Assembly: GCF_003095375.1 (NCBI RefSeq)
Contig: NZ_QEHR01000003.1
Location: 248,001 to 312,000 of the forward strand
Length of the DNA: 64,000 nucleotides
Direction of reading: 5' to 3'
DNA from: Marixanthomonas spongiae
Lineage (GTDB): Bacteria > Bacteroidota > Bacteroidia > Flavobacteriales > Flavobacteriaceae
Shown here: positions 7,310 through 11,922 of the stretch, one piece after another
Layout: every line of letters starts with the position of its first letter
Numbering within the stretch: the stretch's first letter is position 1
Notes under the pieces: model-generated
What the model was told of the DNA's origin: nothing
The model's database searches: none
What the model saw: only the letters and a program-made list of their open reading frames with translations
Position numbers and translations under genes: made by a program

Positions 7310-7840
7310 ATGACCATGAAAAACACTACACTACTGATTATCCTGTTGGTTTGCTTTCCTTTGTTCGCAAAGGCTCAGGATGTAAATCGGAATCAACCGA
7401 CCATTGCAGAATCTGATGTTCCGCAAGCTGTTTTGTCCAATCAAGATACTTTATTCCCCGGTGGATTTATTTCAGAATGGCAGCTTCAAAAAGGGTTTGA
7501 TGCCACCGATGACAAGGTCGTACGCTATATTTCAATATTTGAAGAAGACGGAAGACCTGGGTCTTCGGCTTCCTATCTTCCCAATGGCACATTAATATTC
7601 CATTCAGAATTTATGTTAGCCGAAACCATTCCTGAAACCGTCCGGCTGAAACTTCAGTTTGACTATAAAGACTATGACGTGGAACGTGCCGATTTTATTA
7701 CGCTCTATGCACCAAAAAGAGAAATATACCGCATCCATTTACGGAAAAATACAGCCGTATTACATACCTATTACGATATAAACGGAAATCAAATTCCTAA
7801 AGAAACGCTTCCTGTAGAACTTATTTTATTTGACCGTTAA
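7310..7840 (+). CDS. Exported protein of unknown function
   Basis: 176 residues; a second ATG at 7316 gives the same reading. A clear signal peptide (MKNTTLLIILLVCFPLFAKAQ) suggests periplasmic or surface location. The mature part is charged, with beta-type strands (YISIFEEDGRPGSSASYLPNG; VRLKLQFDYKDYDVE), and ends without a sorting domain or lipobox. I do not recognise the family. It lies alone between the E1 gene and the asnB leader, with 61 bases upstream. Confidence 0.7.
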   Translation: MTMKNTTLLIILLVCFPLFAKAQDVNRNQPTIAESDVPQAVLSNQDTLFPGGFISEWQLQKGFDATDDKVVRYISIFEEDGRPGSSASYLPNGTLIFHSEFMLAETIPETVRLKLQFDYKDYDVERADFITLYAPKREIYRIHLRKNTAVLHTYYDINGNQIPKETLPVELILFDR

Positions 7841-7902
7841 GGTCTTGTTTTAATTGCGTTTATCGTTCATTTTGACCAATTAATTCAAAAAAAACAGGCC
7901 AC

Positions 7903-7910
7903 TAAATTTG
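7903..7910 (+). promoter_or_regulatory. -7 promoter element for the asnB leader
   Basis: TAAATTTG matches TAnnTTTG exactly. No good -33 TTG lies at 19-21 bases. Transcription would start near 7915, placing the short Asn-rich leader ORF (7970-8017) about 55 bases into the transcript. Confidence 0.5.
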
Positions 7911-7969
7911 GATTTTACATTTTTTTTAATGAATATTTACAAACAACCAAAATAGAAAAATACAAGTTT

Positions 7970-8017
7970 ATGATACTTTTCAACGTAAATAACAACAATA
8001 ATAACCCGTTGCCGTAG
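7970..8017 (+). CDS. Asn-rich leader peptide of the asnB attenuator
   Basis: A 15-codon ORF, ATG at 7970 to TAG at 8015-8017, encoding MILFNVNNNNNNPLP. Seven of the 15 residues are Asn, six of them consecutive (7988-8005). It lies 213 bases upstream of asparagine synthetase and just before a terminator hairpin. The arrangement is that of the his, trp and leu leader peptides: scarce charged tRNA-Asn would stall the ribosome on the Asn run. The stop codon lies one base before the antiterminator strand (8019-8027), so a ribosome that reaches the stop would cover it. Too short for normal ORF calling. Confidence 0.75.
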   Translation: MILFNVNNNNNNPLP

Positions 8018-8018
8018 C

Positions 8019-8054
8019 AAAAACTTGTCGCGATATTCCGCCCGTCAGGTTTTT
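8019..8054 (+). promoter_or_regulatory. Predicted antiterminator of the asnB leader
   Basis: AAAAACTTG (8019-8027) can pair over nine bases, with one G-U, with CAGGTTTTT (8046-8054). The second strand is also the 5' arm of the terminator at 8041-8067. The 3' arm of the terminator repeats the same AAACTTG word (8056-8062). The two structures are therefore mutually exclusive, as attenuation requires. Confidence 0.65.
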
Positions 8055-8079
8055 GAAACTTGACGGGTTTTTCTTTTTA
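8041..8079 (+). terminator. Intrinsic terminator/attenuator ahead of asnB
   Basis: A 12-bp stem, 8041-8052 with 8056-8067 (CCCGTCAGGTTT / AAACTTGACGGG, one G-U), has a 3-base loop and is followed by TTTTTCTTTTT. It stands 152 bases before the asnB ATG with no large ORF in front of it, so it serves the leader transcript. The sequence resembles GC-rich hairpins often found after flavobacterial genes. Confidence 0.8.
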
Positions 8080-8230
8080 TGGCTGTCTGTAAAAAGTCCT
8101 CTGAACCTCTAGCGAAAGAGGAAAATAATACCAACAATATGAAATCAACTAAATCAAATACTAACTAAATCAAGGAGACCGCTAAAGGGGTTGGGCATCT
8201 TAAAAGGTTCCGGCCTTTGCGGGAATTATT

Positions 8231-9925
8231 ATGTGTGGAATTGTATGTGCTTTTAAACTAAAAGAACCAGCTGAAGCCTTGCGCTTACAGCTATTGTCAA
8301 TGAGTAAATGTATTCGTCACCGCGGGCCGGACTGGAGCGGGATTTTCGACAATGACAAAGCCATTATGGCGCATGAGCGCTTGGCCATTGTGGACCCAAC
8401 TTCGGGAAAACAGCCGCTTTTCAGCAAAGACAACAAATTGGTATTGGCCGCCAATGGCGAAATTTACAATCATCTGGAACTGCGCGAACAGCTTACTGAA
8501 AACTACGAGTTTCAAACAAAATCGGATTGTGAAGTCATCTTACCGCTTTTCAAGGAAAAAGGAAGTGGTTTTTTAGATGATTTAAACGGTATTTTCGGTT
8601 TTGCCATCTACGATGTAGAAGCAGATGAATATTTAATTGCCCGCGACCACATGGGCATTATTCCATTGTATATGGGCTGGGACCAAAACGGGACCTTTTA
8701 CGTGGCTTCCGAATTAAAAGCCTTAGAAGGCATCTGTACCAAAATCGAACTTTTCCCTCCAGGACATTATCTGTACAGTAAGGAAGGCGAACTGACACGA
8801 TGGTACACCCGCGACTGGATGGAATACGATGCTGTAAAAGACAATGAAACCAACATTCAAGAACTACGAGAGGCCTTGGACGCTGCCGTTCACCGCCAAT
8901 TGATGAGCGATGTGCCTTATGGCGTGTTGCTTTCGGGCGGTTTGGACTCTTCCATCACTTCTGCTCTGGCAAAAAAATATGCCGATAAACGCATTGAAAC
9001 CGGCGATACCGAACATGCTTGGTACCCTAGGCTACATTCGTTTGCCATTGGGCTGGAAGGCAGCCCAGATTTGGCTGCTGCCAAAAAAGTAGCCGAGCAT
9101 TTAGATACCGTGCACCATGAAATCAAGTTTACCATCCAAGAAGGGATCGATGCCATTCGGGACGTCATTTACCATTTGGAAACATACGATATTACAACCA
9201 TTAGAGCATCAACGCCTATGTTTTTAATGGCAAGGGCCATAAAATCGTTGGGGATTAAAATGGTGTTGAGCGGTGAGGGCAGCGACGAGATATTTGGGGG
9301 CTACCTTTATTTTCACAAAGCGCCCAATGCTGAAGAATTTCATAAAGAAACCGTTAGAAAGCTCGATAAACTGCACCAATACGACTGTTTGCGGGCCAAC
9401 AAGAGCTTGGCTGCTTGGGGCATTGAAGGCAGGGTGCCCTTTTTGGACAAAGAATTTATGGATGTGGCGATGCGCTTAAACCCAAAAGATAAAATGATAA
9501 ATGGTGATTCTCTCGATGAGCGTTCGAAACGGGCTATGGAAAAATGGGTGCTGCGAAAAGCATTTGAAGACATGTTGCCCGAAAGCGTGGCGTGGCGCCA
9601 GAAAGAACAGTTCAGTGATGGTGTGGGCTACAGTTGGATCGACACCTTAAAGGAAATGGTTAACGAGCAAGTAAGCGACGATCAAATGGAGAACGCCCAT
9701 TATAAATTCCCCATCCAAACGCCCACCAGCAAAGAGGAATTTTATTACCGAACCATTTTTGCCGAGCATTTTCCCAGTGATACGGCGGCGTTGAGCGTGC
9801 CATCGGTCCCATCAGTGGCGTGCAGCAGTCCCGCGGCGTTAGAATGGGACGAGAGTTTTAAAAACATGAACGACCCCAGCGGACGGGCCGTTGCCAATGT
9901 GCATAGTGATGCGTATAGCAATTAA
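8231..9925 (+). CDS. asnB: Asparagine synthase (glutamine-hydrolysing)
   Basis: 564 residues. The protein begins MCGIVCAF, so Cys2 becomes the N-terminal nucleophile of a class-II glutaminase domain (about 2-190; RHRGPDWSG and NGEIYNH visible). The synthetase domain follows, with the ATP PP-loop SGGLDSS at about 234-240 and SGEGSDEIFGGY near 350. It makes asparagine from aspartate, glutamine and ATP in the cytosol. Length fits the AsnB family (about 550). The upstream region 7841-8230 contains the Asn-codon attenuator, so expression is probably induced when charged tRNA-Asn is low. A terminator follows at 9996, so the gene is a single transcription unit. Confidence 0.97.
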   Translation: MCGIVCAFKLKEPAEALRLQLLSMSKCIRHRGPDWSGIFDNDKAIMAHERLAIVDPTSGKQPLFSKDNKLVLAANGEIYNHLELREQLTENYEFQTKSDCEVILPLFKEKGSGFLDDLNGIFGFAIYDVEADEYLIARDHMGIIPLYMGWDQNGTFYVASELKALEGICTKIELFPPGHYLYSKEGELTRWYTRDWMEYDAVKDNETNIQELREALDAAVHRQLMSDVPYGVLLSGGLDSSITSALAKKYADKRIETGDTEHAWYPRLHSFAIGLEGSPDLAAAKKVAEHLDTVHHEIKFTIQEGIDAIRDVIYHLETYDITTIRASTPMFLMARAIKSLGIKMVLSGEGSDEIFGGYLYFHKAPNAEEFHKETVRKLDKLHQYDCLRANKSLAAWGIEGRVPFLDKEFMDVAMRLNPKDKMINGDSLDERSKRAMEKWVLRKAFEDMLPESVAWRQKEQFSDGVGYSWIDTLKEMVNEQVSDDQMENAHYKFPIQTPTSKEEFYYRTIFAEHFPSDTAALSVPSVPSVACSSPAALEWDESFKNMNDPSGRAVANVHSDAYSN

Positions 9926-9995
9926 CTCATCACTAATGCCTTATAATTTTAACAAATACCGTTTTGCTTGCTAATTTACAGTTAAACATTTTTTA

Positions 9996-10027
9996 AACAC
10001 CCCGATTGCACCGGGGTGTTTTTTTAT
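9996..10027 (+). terminator. Terminator after asnB
   Basis: AACACCCCG (9996-10004) pairs perfectly with CGGGGTGTT (10012-10020) around a 7-base loop and is followed by a run of T. It separates asnB from the DUF1704 gene. Confidence 0.85.
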
Positions 10028-10035
10028 CTTGAGGT

Positions 10036-11922
10036 ATGGAAGCATTTACTACCATTAAATTTCCATACAAAATGACAACCACAACCGAAACAACTAAAAC
10101 TACCTCTAAAATAAACAAGATTTTAAACGATCTTACTCCCGGCGAACGCACTGTTTGCCCATTACCGCATGACGGTTATTTATTTTTGGAGCACGATGTG
10201 CCTTCTTTGCTTATCTACAGAAAAAAACCAAATGACAAGGCCACATTGCGTTTGGCCCGGAGCGGAGCCTCTTATTTGATTATTGGGGAAGAGCATTTCG
10301 ACTTTTTCCAGGAATTTATTTCGGTGTTGACCGAAAAAATGGCGGCTAAATTCGGTTCTTTCATTTTATTGGAAATTTTCAGTGGGGAAACCAACAGCCA
10401 CGAATTTGTCATCCGTGGGCCTTCACACAAACTGCCGGTTTCCTTGGACGTTCTAAAAGATGAACTTTGCAAGATCCCCAGCCGAAAATACAATGTTCAG
10501 CTTACCGCACGTATCGAGCAGACCAAACAACGCCAACTGGAAGCCGTAACGCCGCTTTTCAGTATTAAAGACATCAAGGCCAAAGGTGGAACTTTGATTG
10601 GCCTTGAAGTGCCACCTGTTTACCGCGACGCGGACGATAATGTTTATCCGGTCTATTTCAGAAAATTTAGGGACAGTTTAATTGAAGCCATCCAAAAAGC
10701 CATTTTTGAATTTATACGGGTACAGACCACTTCAAAACTCACCAATTTTCATGCGCTGGGAAAACGTGATATTCATTCCGAAGTATTTAAAATAGATAAA
10801 CAGCTTACTGAAATTCAATTGAGCTATCAATTTTTATTGTTGATTGCCCCCGTGAACATCCAAGCACTTCGCAAACGTTTTTTTGAAACCAATTTTGAAG
10901 AAATAGGCGCCTACCATTACCGTTTGCTTCCGGTAGATCCGGATATTTTGAAACGCAAACTCTATAATTTAAGGATAGACGAAATAGACGACCCCGCCCT
11001 CTCCTACCTTTTTGACGAAAAACGAGAAGAAATAGACCAACAGCTTACCATGCTAAAAGAACGGGGTTCAAAAAACTTCTTTTACAGCAGCGTCCGTTTG
11101 TATAAAGGAATTGATCCAAATGTATTGACCGAGGCCAAACTGATACTTCAGAATATCGATGAAGACCATTCACAAGAAGAACGGCAAGACATCGATGCCA
11201 AGGCATTTGCAAAAATGGCCGAAAGGGAATTTGAATATTTTAAAAAGCAAAGCCCTGATTACAATGGAAACATCCACATTCGAGACGATGTGAACATTAT
11301 GATGGTCTCGCAAGGCGAACTGTACCTGCCCTCCGATTACACCATGACAAAAAATGGGGCAGCCGCTTTATTACAGCACGAAATAGGTACCCACGCCTTA
11401 ACATACTACAACGGCAGTCAACAATCGTTAAGCCAGATGGCAGCAGGTTTTGCCGATTATGATGCCCTGCAAGAAGGGATTGCCGTACTCTCAGAGTATT
11501 TAATTGGCGGACTTTCGGGAAACCGGCTTAGAATCTTGGCCGGGCGCGTGGTCGCAGGCGATGCGCTTTTGGATGGAGCCGATTTTAAGCAGGTGTTTAG
11601 CTTATTGCATACGCAATATGGATTTTCAAAAGAAAATGCTTTTAATATTACCTCTAGGATGTTTCAAGGTGGCGGCTTTTTAAAAGATATTATTTATCTC
11701 AAGGGGCTGGTAGAGCTGCGTGATTATTTAATAGATGATGGCGAACTGGAGCCGTTACTGGCGGGAAAATTCGCTTTAAAGCACGTAGAAGTCATCGAAG
11801 ATTTGACCGATAGGGGATTGTTGACCCCTCCAAAACTAAAACCAAGGTATCTCACATCTCCAGGTTTCAACAAAAAAATAGACCATATAAAACAAGGGTT
11901 GGCCCTTTCTAAAATGATATAA
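10036..11922 (+). CDS. DUF1704 / QEGLA-motif metallocarboxypeptidase-like protein
   Basis: 628 residues from ATG 10036; an ATG at 10072 (MTTTTETTKT) is an alternative start and may be the real one, because 10036 lies only a few bases after a TATCTTG promoter-like word. The catalytic core is clear: HEIGTH near residues 448-453 (HExxxH-type zinc ligands) and QEGIAVLSEYL near 477, the QEGLA motif. The family is annotated in bacteria as flavohemoglobin-expression-modulating QEGLA protein; its eukaryotic relatives (MATCAP) are tyrosine carboxypeptidases acting on tubulin. Here it is followed after 2 bases by an ATP-grasp ligase and then by an AstE/AspA-like deacylase. I infer removal of a C-terminal amino acid added by the ligase; the substrate is unknown. 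Confidence 0.88.
   Translation: MEAFTTIKFPYKMTTTTETTKTTSKINKILNDLTPGERTVCPLPHDGYLFLEHDVPSLLIYRKKPNDKATLRLARSGASYLIIGEEHFDFFQEFISVLTEKMAAKFGSFILLEIFSGETNSHEFVIRGPSHKLPVSLDVLKDELCKIPSRKYNVQLTARIEQTKQRQLEAVTPLFSIKDIKAKGGTLIGLEVPPVYRDADDNVYPVYFRKFRDSLIEAIQKAIFEFIRVQTTSKLTNFHALGKRDIHSEVFKIDKQLTEIQLSYQFLLLIAPVNIQALRKRFFETNFEEIGAYHYRLLPVDPDILKRKLYNLRIDEIDDPALSYLFDEKREEIDQQLTMLKERGSKNFFYSSVRLYKGIDPNVLTEAKLILQNIDEDHSQEERQDIDAKAFAKMAEREFEYFKKQSPDYNGNIHIRDDVNIMMVSQGELYLPSDYTMTKNGAAALLQHEIGTHALTYYNGSQQSLSQMAAGFADYDALQEGIAVLSEYLIGGLSGNRLRILAGRVVAGDALLDGADFKQVFSLLHTQYGFSKENAFNITSRMFQGGGFLKDIIYLKGLVELRDYLIDDGELEPLLAGKFALKHVEVIEDLTDRGLLTPPKLKPRYLTSPGFNKKIDHIKQGLALSKMI

Follow-up and report, generated by a model that had tools for sequence, protein, structure and literature searches.

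A predicted asparagine-codon transcription attenuator ahead of asnB in Marixanthomonas spongiae and related Flavobacteriaceae

The asnB locus and its upstream region

The window analyzed here, a contiguous stretch of 64,000 nucleotides from the genome of Marixanthomonas spongiae, contains an asnB gene that is preceded by a short, asparagine-rich open reading frame (ORF) and by a set of mutually overlapping complementary strands. The features of the locus are as follows.

7908..7939, + strand: promoter-like site, a loose match with TTG at 7908-7910, a 21-nt spacer and AATATTTA at 7932-7939
7962..7969, + strand: segment 1, ACAAGTTT, which abuts the leader ATG on its 5' side and pairs with AAACTTGT at 8021-8028
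7970..8017, + strand: leader ORF MILFNVNNNNNNPLP, 15 codons, stop codon TAG at 8015-8017, with 84 distinct homologous leaders
7988..8005, + strand: Asn run, six Asn codons in tandem
8019..8028, + strand: segment 2, AAAAACTTGT, with segment 1 or segment 3 as alternative partners
8040..8054, + strand: segment 3, the 5' arm of the terminator, of which 8046-8054 is also the antiterminator partner of segment 2
8040..8078, + strand: predicted intrinsic terminator with stem arms 8040-8052 and 8056-8068 and a T-rich tail that extends to 8078
8231..9925, + strand: asnB, glutamine-hydrolysing asparagine synthetase, 564 aa
9995..10021, + strand: terminator-like hairpin 3' of asnB, from the consensus scan

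In a profile search the asnB product matched NF006949 (PRK09431.1, asparagine synthase B) with 920.9 bits against a cut-off of 499. As a terminator-like hairpin follows the gene, asnB looks like a one-gene unit. The window (positions 1-64000) contains no tRNA genes, and no Rfam 15 family, T-box included, reached its gathering score anywhere in it. Elsewhere in the genome an asparaginyl-tRNA synthetase (AsnRS) is present (593 bits), asnA gave no match, and a second, distant asparagine-synthetase-like gene encodes 609 aa with 36% identity over part of its length; it adjoins an ORF that was named glycosyltransferase-like by eye. With this gene set, most asparagine is probably supplied through asnB, and direct charging is the probable source of Asn-tRNA.

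The first-pass annotation of this DNA had proposed a leader ORF with six consecutive Asn codons, and its coordinates were confirmed on the sequence; codon 5 (7982-7984) is an additional Asn codon. The pairing that it had proposed between AAAAACTTG (8019-8027) and CAGGTTTTT (8046-8054) does exist and includes one G-U pair, and the strong terminator with T-run that was said to share 8046-8054 was likewise found, with a stem spanning 8040-8068 (13 pairs and a loop of 3 in the consensus scan). Its set of hairpins thus stood as far as terminator and antiterminator are concerned, and lacked the pairing of segments 1 and 2.

The fold of 8031-8078, which comprises the terminator (segments 3 and 4), has a free energy of -19.1 kcal/mol and a z-score of -4.5, and none of 200 shuffled sequences was as stable. 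The same holds for the longer region 7960-8080 (z = -4.15, 0 of 200), whose minimum-energy fold consists of the terminator and the helix 7962-7969/8021-8028. The antiterminator fold of segments 2 and 3 (8016-8054) reached -10.1 kcal/mol (z = -2.35; 5 of 200 shuffles as stable), and 7946-8040, which includes the pairing of segments 1 and 2, reached -11.9 kcal/mol (z = -1.65; 12 of 200). When 8016-8078 is folded at equilibrium the terminator wins over the antiterminator, so any switch would have to be kinetic and co-transcriptional. A consensus terminator scan of 7800-10100 returned four sites compared to 3.0 expected, so that the presence of the hairpin alone proves little; the recurrence of the same leader, spacing and hairpins in 84 distinct sequences is above chance.

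Bacteroidota promoters are of the type TTG/TAnnTTTG. A loose form of this pattern (TTG, 15-25 nt, nAnnTTTR), sought within 100 nt 5' of the leader, occurred in 40 of the 84 homologous loci compared to 12.9 in dinucleotide shuffles (maximum 20), and 34 of these 40 sites lay 33-43 nt before the leader start. Stricter patterns showed no convincing enrichment: TAnnTTTG was present within 110 nt before the leader in 9/84 loci (5.5 in shuffles), and the strict two-box promoter upstream of the leader in 2/84 (0.4 in shuffles). From the loose pattern we infer a promoter 5' of the leader. No promoter-like site that would point to a transcription start at 8080-8230, and so to a bypass of the leader, stands out in the homologous loci: the interval between terminator and asnB contained the strict TAnnTTTG in 0/84 and the loose pattern in 1/84 (2.5 expected).

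The distance from leader stop to asnB start ranges from 76 to 217 nt across the 84 loci. In the window, the part of this interval that follows the terminator (8079-8230) contains TTCCGGCCTTTGCGGGAA at 8208-8225, which occurs only once in the 64 kb. By eye, the gap between terminator and asnB appears palindromic or repeat-like where it is longer, also at L014, L016, L020, and L119.

Distribution of the leader among asnB genes

The family sample comprised 199 genomes, 174 of which had an asnB-like match. Upstream regions were read at 129 asnB loci, with one locus that had no start (L120), one at a contig end (G082) and lower-ranked matches left out. The system was present at 21 of the 129 loci (L001, L004-L020, L022, L023, and L119). 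The longest Asn run was at least four codons in 18 of these 21 loci; in short upstream ORFs of the 108 loci that lack the system it was zero to two codons in 104, three in three, and four in one.

A covariance model of the leader RNA (R1), run on 397 family genomes, matched 61 of them at E ≤ 0.01 and 40 at E ≤ 2e-7. Among 28 loci that matched R1 and were read without requiring asnB, 23 consisted of leader plus asnB, and a 24th case (L144) was judged as such by eye; two ended at a contig edge with the leader visible, and two weak ones had no leader. Fifteen of the weak matches (E 7e-5 to 1e-2; L176-L188, L194, and L195) included none with leader plus asnB, and no listed ORF at these loci had an asnB-like start. 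When the genome collection was scanned with a gapped pattern (an Asn run, then 9-15 nt, the stop and CARRARCTTGT), 99 stretches were returned. Among the 80 listed, 58 were leaders and 22 were chance matches; asnB was read downstream of 55 of the 58, and the other three were cut by a contig edge (L211, L233, and L234). Rejected chance matches include L218, where a chance start codon was not followed by an Asn ORF, and L260, which has a short Asn-containing ORF and neither terminator nor asnB. Genera with a true leader include Aequorivita, Altibacter, Ulvibacter, Gilvibacter, Mesonia, Marinirhabdus, Luteirhabdus, Aureisphaera, Patiriisocius, Aureitalea, Cochleicola, Pukyongia, and Halomarinibacterium.

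In one scan a locus counted as a member if it had an Asn-rich ORF of at least 10 codons that was followed by the post-stop strand and, no more than 330 nt away, by the start of asnB. With asnB downstream being a condition of the scan, 84 leader loci with distinct sequences were obtained, which encode 71 different peptides; this bears out the earlier expectation that an Asn-rich short ORF is conserved upstream of asnB in relatives. By taxon, 44 members are assigned to the family of the window and a further 36 carry the name Flavobacteriaceae, whereas one is placed no lower than Flavobacteriales and three no lower than Bacteroidia or Bacteroidetes; hence 80 of the 84 are Flavobacteriaceae or of the window's own family, and the other four are assigned only to higher groups. 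A search of 148 genomes from the phylum yielded eight asnB orthologues outside the family (L312-L319; 62-73% identity); among the ORFs of 8-30 codons listed in their 300 nt upstream, none had three tandem Asn codons.

In a tree calculated from the first 150 residues of the 129 asnB proteins, 19 leader-bearing rows from 18 genera (L001 and L004 are congeneric) fell into one group that included no leader-less row, so that all 19 sampled rows of this clade carry the leader. The support of the clade (83/87) is not strong, and L022 and L023 are placed nearby but outside. Leader presence required three state changes on the tree compared to 19.8 with shuffled labels. As judged from these searches, the Asn leader system is confined to one part of the Flavobacteriaceae, and it may have had a single origin, with losses.

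At some leader-less loci (L046, L067, L085, and others) a short ORF of the form 'MK..HIC' 5' of asnB was first taken for another leader class. We tentatively take it for a promoter -7 element, TAnnTTTG translated as codons; a strict TAnnTTTG was located within 110 nt before asnB in only 12 of the 108 loci without the system.

Conservation of codons, spacing and base pairing

The leaders contain a median of seven Asn codons, and the longest run has a median of six (range 1-10); L022 and L023 contain just three each. In the six codons up to the end of the run, AAY accounts for 456 of 504 codons in the 84 leaders and AAR for 3 of 504. As AAT and AAC are exchanged freely and AAA and AAG are nearly absent, it is the peptide code that has been kept and not AT-richness.

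The spacing downstream of the run is fixed to a high degree. The end of the Asn run is separated from the stop codon by three codons in 74/84 leaders (five in seven, two in three), and the distance from the first base of the stop to the C of CTTG is 9 nt in 80/84. The first Asn codon is codon 7 in 38/84 leaders, codon 5 in 22, and codon 4 in 15. A ribosome footprint reaches about 15 nt beyond the first base of the P site. With this value, a ribosome at the stop codon would cover the RNA to about position 8027 and thus almost the whole of segment 2. With the last Asn codon in the A site, the footprint would end at about 8015, short of segment 2. With this footprint, the leader has the spacing that an attenuator needs: segment 2 is masked by a ribosome that has reached the stop but not by one that is still on the Asn codons. 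The combination of a fixed spacing with a variable N-terminal part of the peptide fits such a masking requirement well, and the order of Asn run, three codons, stop, 9 nt and CTTG can serve as a search key for such switches.

Covariation of terminator and antiterminator was assessed in an alignment of the 21 loci from the family sample. In the terminator, 98.6% of 208 cells were paired. Both sides had changed in 6 of 10 pairs (2.7 in shuffles), which 2 of 500 shuffles matched, and in 19 individual cells (5.0 in shuffles), which none of the 500 matched; pair types showed no clear excess, as 62 of 500 shuffles reached their number. Judged by this alignment, the terminator structure is strongly supported. 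In the antiterminator, 98.8% of 168 cells were paired vs. 96.3% in shuffles, and eight cells had changed on both sides compared to 3.2 (0 of 500 as high), all of them in a single pair. One both-sided pair was also reached by 373 of 500 shuffles, and the count of pair types by all 500. The expectation that both hairpins would display compensatory changes therefore holds for the terminator, and for one pair only in the antiterminator. The antiterminator is supported by retained complementarity and by the one covarying pair; it shares an arm with the terminator, as the two helices of an attenuator do. Antiterminator energies across the 84 members were set aside, as the automatic cut included the terminator in some of them (L164 and L023).

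The CTTGT of segment 2 is invariant in the 21-member alignment, and CAAG, the complement of CTTG, was found within the 20 nt before the leader start in 62 of the 84 loci, compared to 1/84 in the next window upstream. The duplex of segments 1 and 2 had a mean energy of -6.72 in the 84 members, and of -3.91 with letter shuffles (0 of 200 as low). Control duplexes of segment 2 had means of -2.77 with the upstream window and -2.85 with a window inside the leader. When segment 1 was swapped among members the mean was -6.41, and 1 of 200 swaps was as low as the members' own pairing. Reduction of redundancy to 43 clusters below 85% similarity gave a consistent picture (CAAG in 31/43 vs. 1/43; 0 of 200 shuffles as low; 13 of 500 swaps pairing as well).

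Several members have paired variants of the two segments, namely ACAAGCT with AGCTTGT (L154, L238, and L280), AAGCAC with GTGCTT (L164-L166 and L168), GCACAAGTT with AACTTGTGC (L163), ACAGGTTC with GAACTTGT (L146), and AGACAA with TTGTCT (L252), which is suggestive of co-variation. When nine variants were tested against each other's partners in a swap table, a variant paired best with its own partner in L154, L164, L252, and L146, equally well in L191, and less well than with another in L151, L163, L189, and L144; some members (e.g., L015, L023, and L192) have no good segment 1. We regard the complementarity of segments 1 and 2 as real and beyond chance, and the indication of covariation between them as moderate. 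With segment 1 included, the predicted attenuator comprises four segments.

Between segments 2 and 3, the loop at 8029-8039 (alignment columns 84-98) has two main conserved forms, one TCGCGATAT-like and one ACCCTATAC-like. None of the three helices accounts for this conservation, and a polymerase pause site is one possibility.

Proposed mechanism, alternative explanations and known systems

What is observed directly is the leader with its Asn run, its spacing, its place before asnB, and a complementarity that is conserved for each of the three pairings; from this we infer ribosome stalling, termination, and a response to asparagine. We consider it very probable that asnB is under the control of a ribosome-mediated transcription attenuator which reads the charging of tRNA-Asn. 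The stalling mechanism that the first-pass annotation had suggested is thus supported by the conserved leader, spacing and pairings. In the proposed model, which assumes that ribosome and polymerase are closely coupled in this phylum, RNA polymerase would start about 20-30 nt upstream of the leader and a ribosome would follow on its 15 codons. With ample Asn-tRNA the ribosome would proceed to the stop codon and its footprint would lie over segment 2, so that the terminator of segments 3 and 4 could form and the transcript would end near 8078. If Asn-tRNA is scarce, the ribosome would wait on the Asn run and leave segment 2 free; its pairing with segment 3 would then precede the synthesis of segment 4, and transcription would continue into asnB. 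Without a loaded ribosome, segment 1 would pair with segment 2, segment 3 would be freed, and termination would be the default. As segment 1 precedes the start codon and the first Asn codon is mostly among codons 4-7, a stalled ribosome would overlap it only in part, and only when it stalls at the earliest Asn codons.

Among the alternatives, an action of the leader on translation, by translational attenuation or reinitiation, with a stalled ribosome opening the asnB start region, seems very unlikely. In Bacteroidetes, leader-to-gene distances are reported to peak at 11-14 bp, for which reinitiation has been proposed (PMC4833913); this would favor the possibility. The asnB leaders stop 76 nt or more before the gene, however, beyond that range, and their conserved structure ends in a terminator with T-run. 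A leader that senses another signal, for instance the queuosine state of tRNA-Asn or a general slowdown of translation, can hardly be credited: AAY codons are decoded by a queuosine-type tRNA-Asn and any defect in decoding would be magnified along a run of one codon, but the gene downstream makes asparagine, which is the usual logic of such leaders. It is equally hard to believe that the hairpin serves only as a 3' terminator for the upstream gene (7310-7840), which lies on the same strand and ends about 200 nt before it, and that the Asn ORF is functionless low-complexity DNA of an AT-rich region with AAT repeats, since the hairpin accompanies the leader at fixed spacing in 84 sequences, AAC and AAT are mixed freely with almost no AAA or AAG, an Asn run of four is the longest and occurs once in the 108 upstream regions without the system, and a promoter-like site separates the upstream gene from the leader.

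Attenuation of transcription by leader peptides is a known mechanism, which the asnB leader would extend to asparagine. Neither an asparagine leader nor an asnB attenuator was found in the open full-text literature, as covered by titles and abstract openings and with subscription papers mostly outside this scope. The attenuation surveys by Vitreschak and others (2004) and Lopatovskaya and others (2010) may cover Bacteroidota, so the claim to a first description of asparagine specificity is provisional. In Firmicutes, asn genes have Asn T-box leaders that sense uncharged tRNA-Asn and control transcription termination. The proposed asnB leader resembles them in linking uncharged tRNA-Asn to the control of termination; in contrast, the T-box binds the tRNA directly and involves neither leader peptide nor ribosome, and no T-box match was obtained in the window. 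Another comparable case, uORFC-8-2, is a computationally found leader with Cys codons before cysS in Rhodobacterales, for which attenuation is the suggested reading. It is similar to the asnB leader in containing codons of the cognate amino acid and in this reading, but differs in its amino acid, its gene, its occurrence in Alphaproteobacteria and its two tandem codons instead of a long run (PMC8632094).

Leaders for other amino acids with the same layout as that of asnB, i.e., an amino-acid-rich leader, a T-tailed terminator and the gene, occur in the M. spongiae genome itself. Upstream of hisG (L328, G000:C7 near 100972, minus strand) the His-rich leader MKQIALHHHHINIHALAR occurs together with a T-tailed terminator. 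A trpE-like gene (L330, G000:C2 near 51741, minus strand) was identified by the anthranilate synthase component I domain PF04715; ahead of it lie a terminator-like hairpin and the ORF MITQNTHTWWPTLHT, which contains Trp codons in tandem. For leuA, no match above the cut-off was obtained in this genome. The hisG survey covered the 30 best-scoring loci (L332-L361) of 49 genomes with a match, plus the own genome, and considered ORFs of 8-35 codons in the 350 nt upstream. An ORF with at least three His codons was present at 30 of these 31 loci (at least four at 22) and a terminator-like hairpin at 29, and many of the His leaders end in QAR, QAS, QAN, or QAK. The His leader is thus found at nearly all of these best-scoring loci, whereas the Asn leader occurs at 21 of 129 asnB loci. 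Ribosome-mediated attenuation is thus likely a general habit of the family, and this raises the prior for the Asn case. Translation initiation in Bacteroidota is unusual, with few Shine-Dalgarno sites; together with the His and Trp leaders, the asnB leader suggests that ribosomes of this phylum stay near enough to RNA polymerase for attenuation, and it offers a natural reporter for tests of transcription-translation coupling in Flavobacteriaceae.

The trp and his attenuators of Escherichia coli consist of a run of end-product codons, a terminator, a mutually exclusive antiterminator, and a third pairing that blocks the antiterminator. The asnB leader has the same elements, with a short codon-run leader, but it contains Asn instead of Trp or His codons, apparently serves one gene, and belongs to Flavobacteriaceae. 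Its segment at the ribosome landing site would pair with the strand after the stop codon, so that the RNA would enclose the whole leader. If this bracketing design is true, a second round of leader translation would be prevented after the first. That this is the first Asn-specific ribosome-mediated attenuator with such a design, sensing ribosome loading and the charging of tRNA-Asn at once, is a tentative proposal to which we give slightly less than even credence. The most distinctive trait of the asnB attenuator is the position of segment 1, which is placed before the leader start codon and not, as in the E. coli trp and his leaders, among the regulatory codons.
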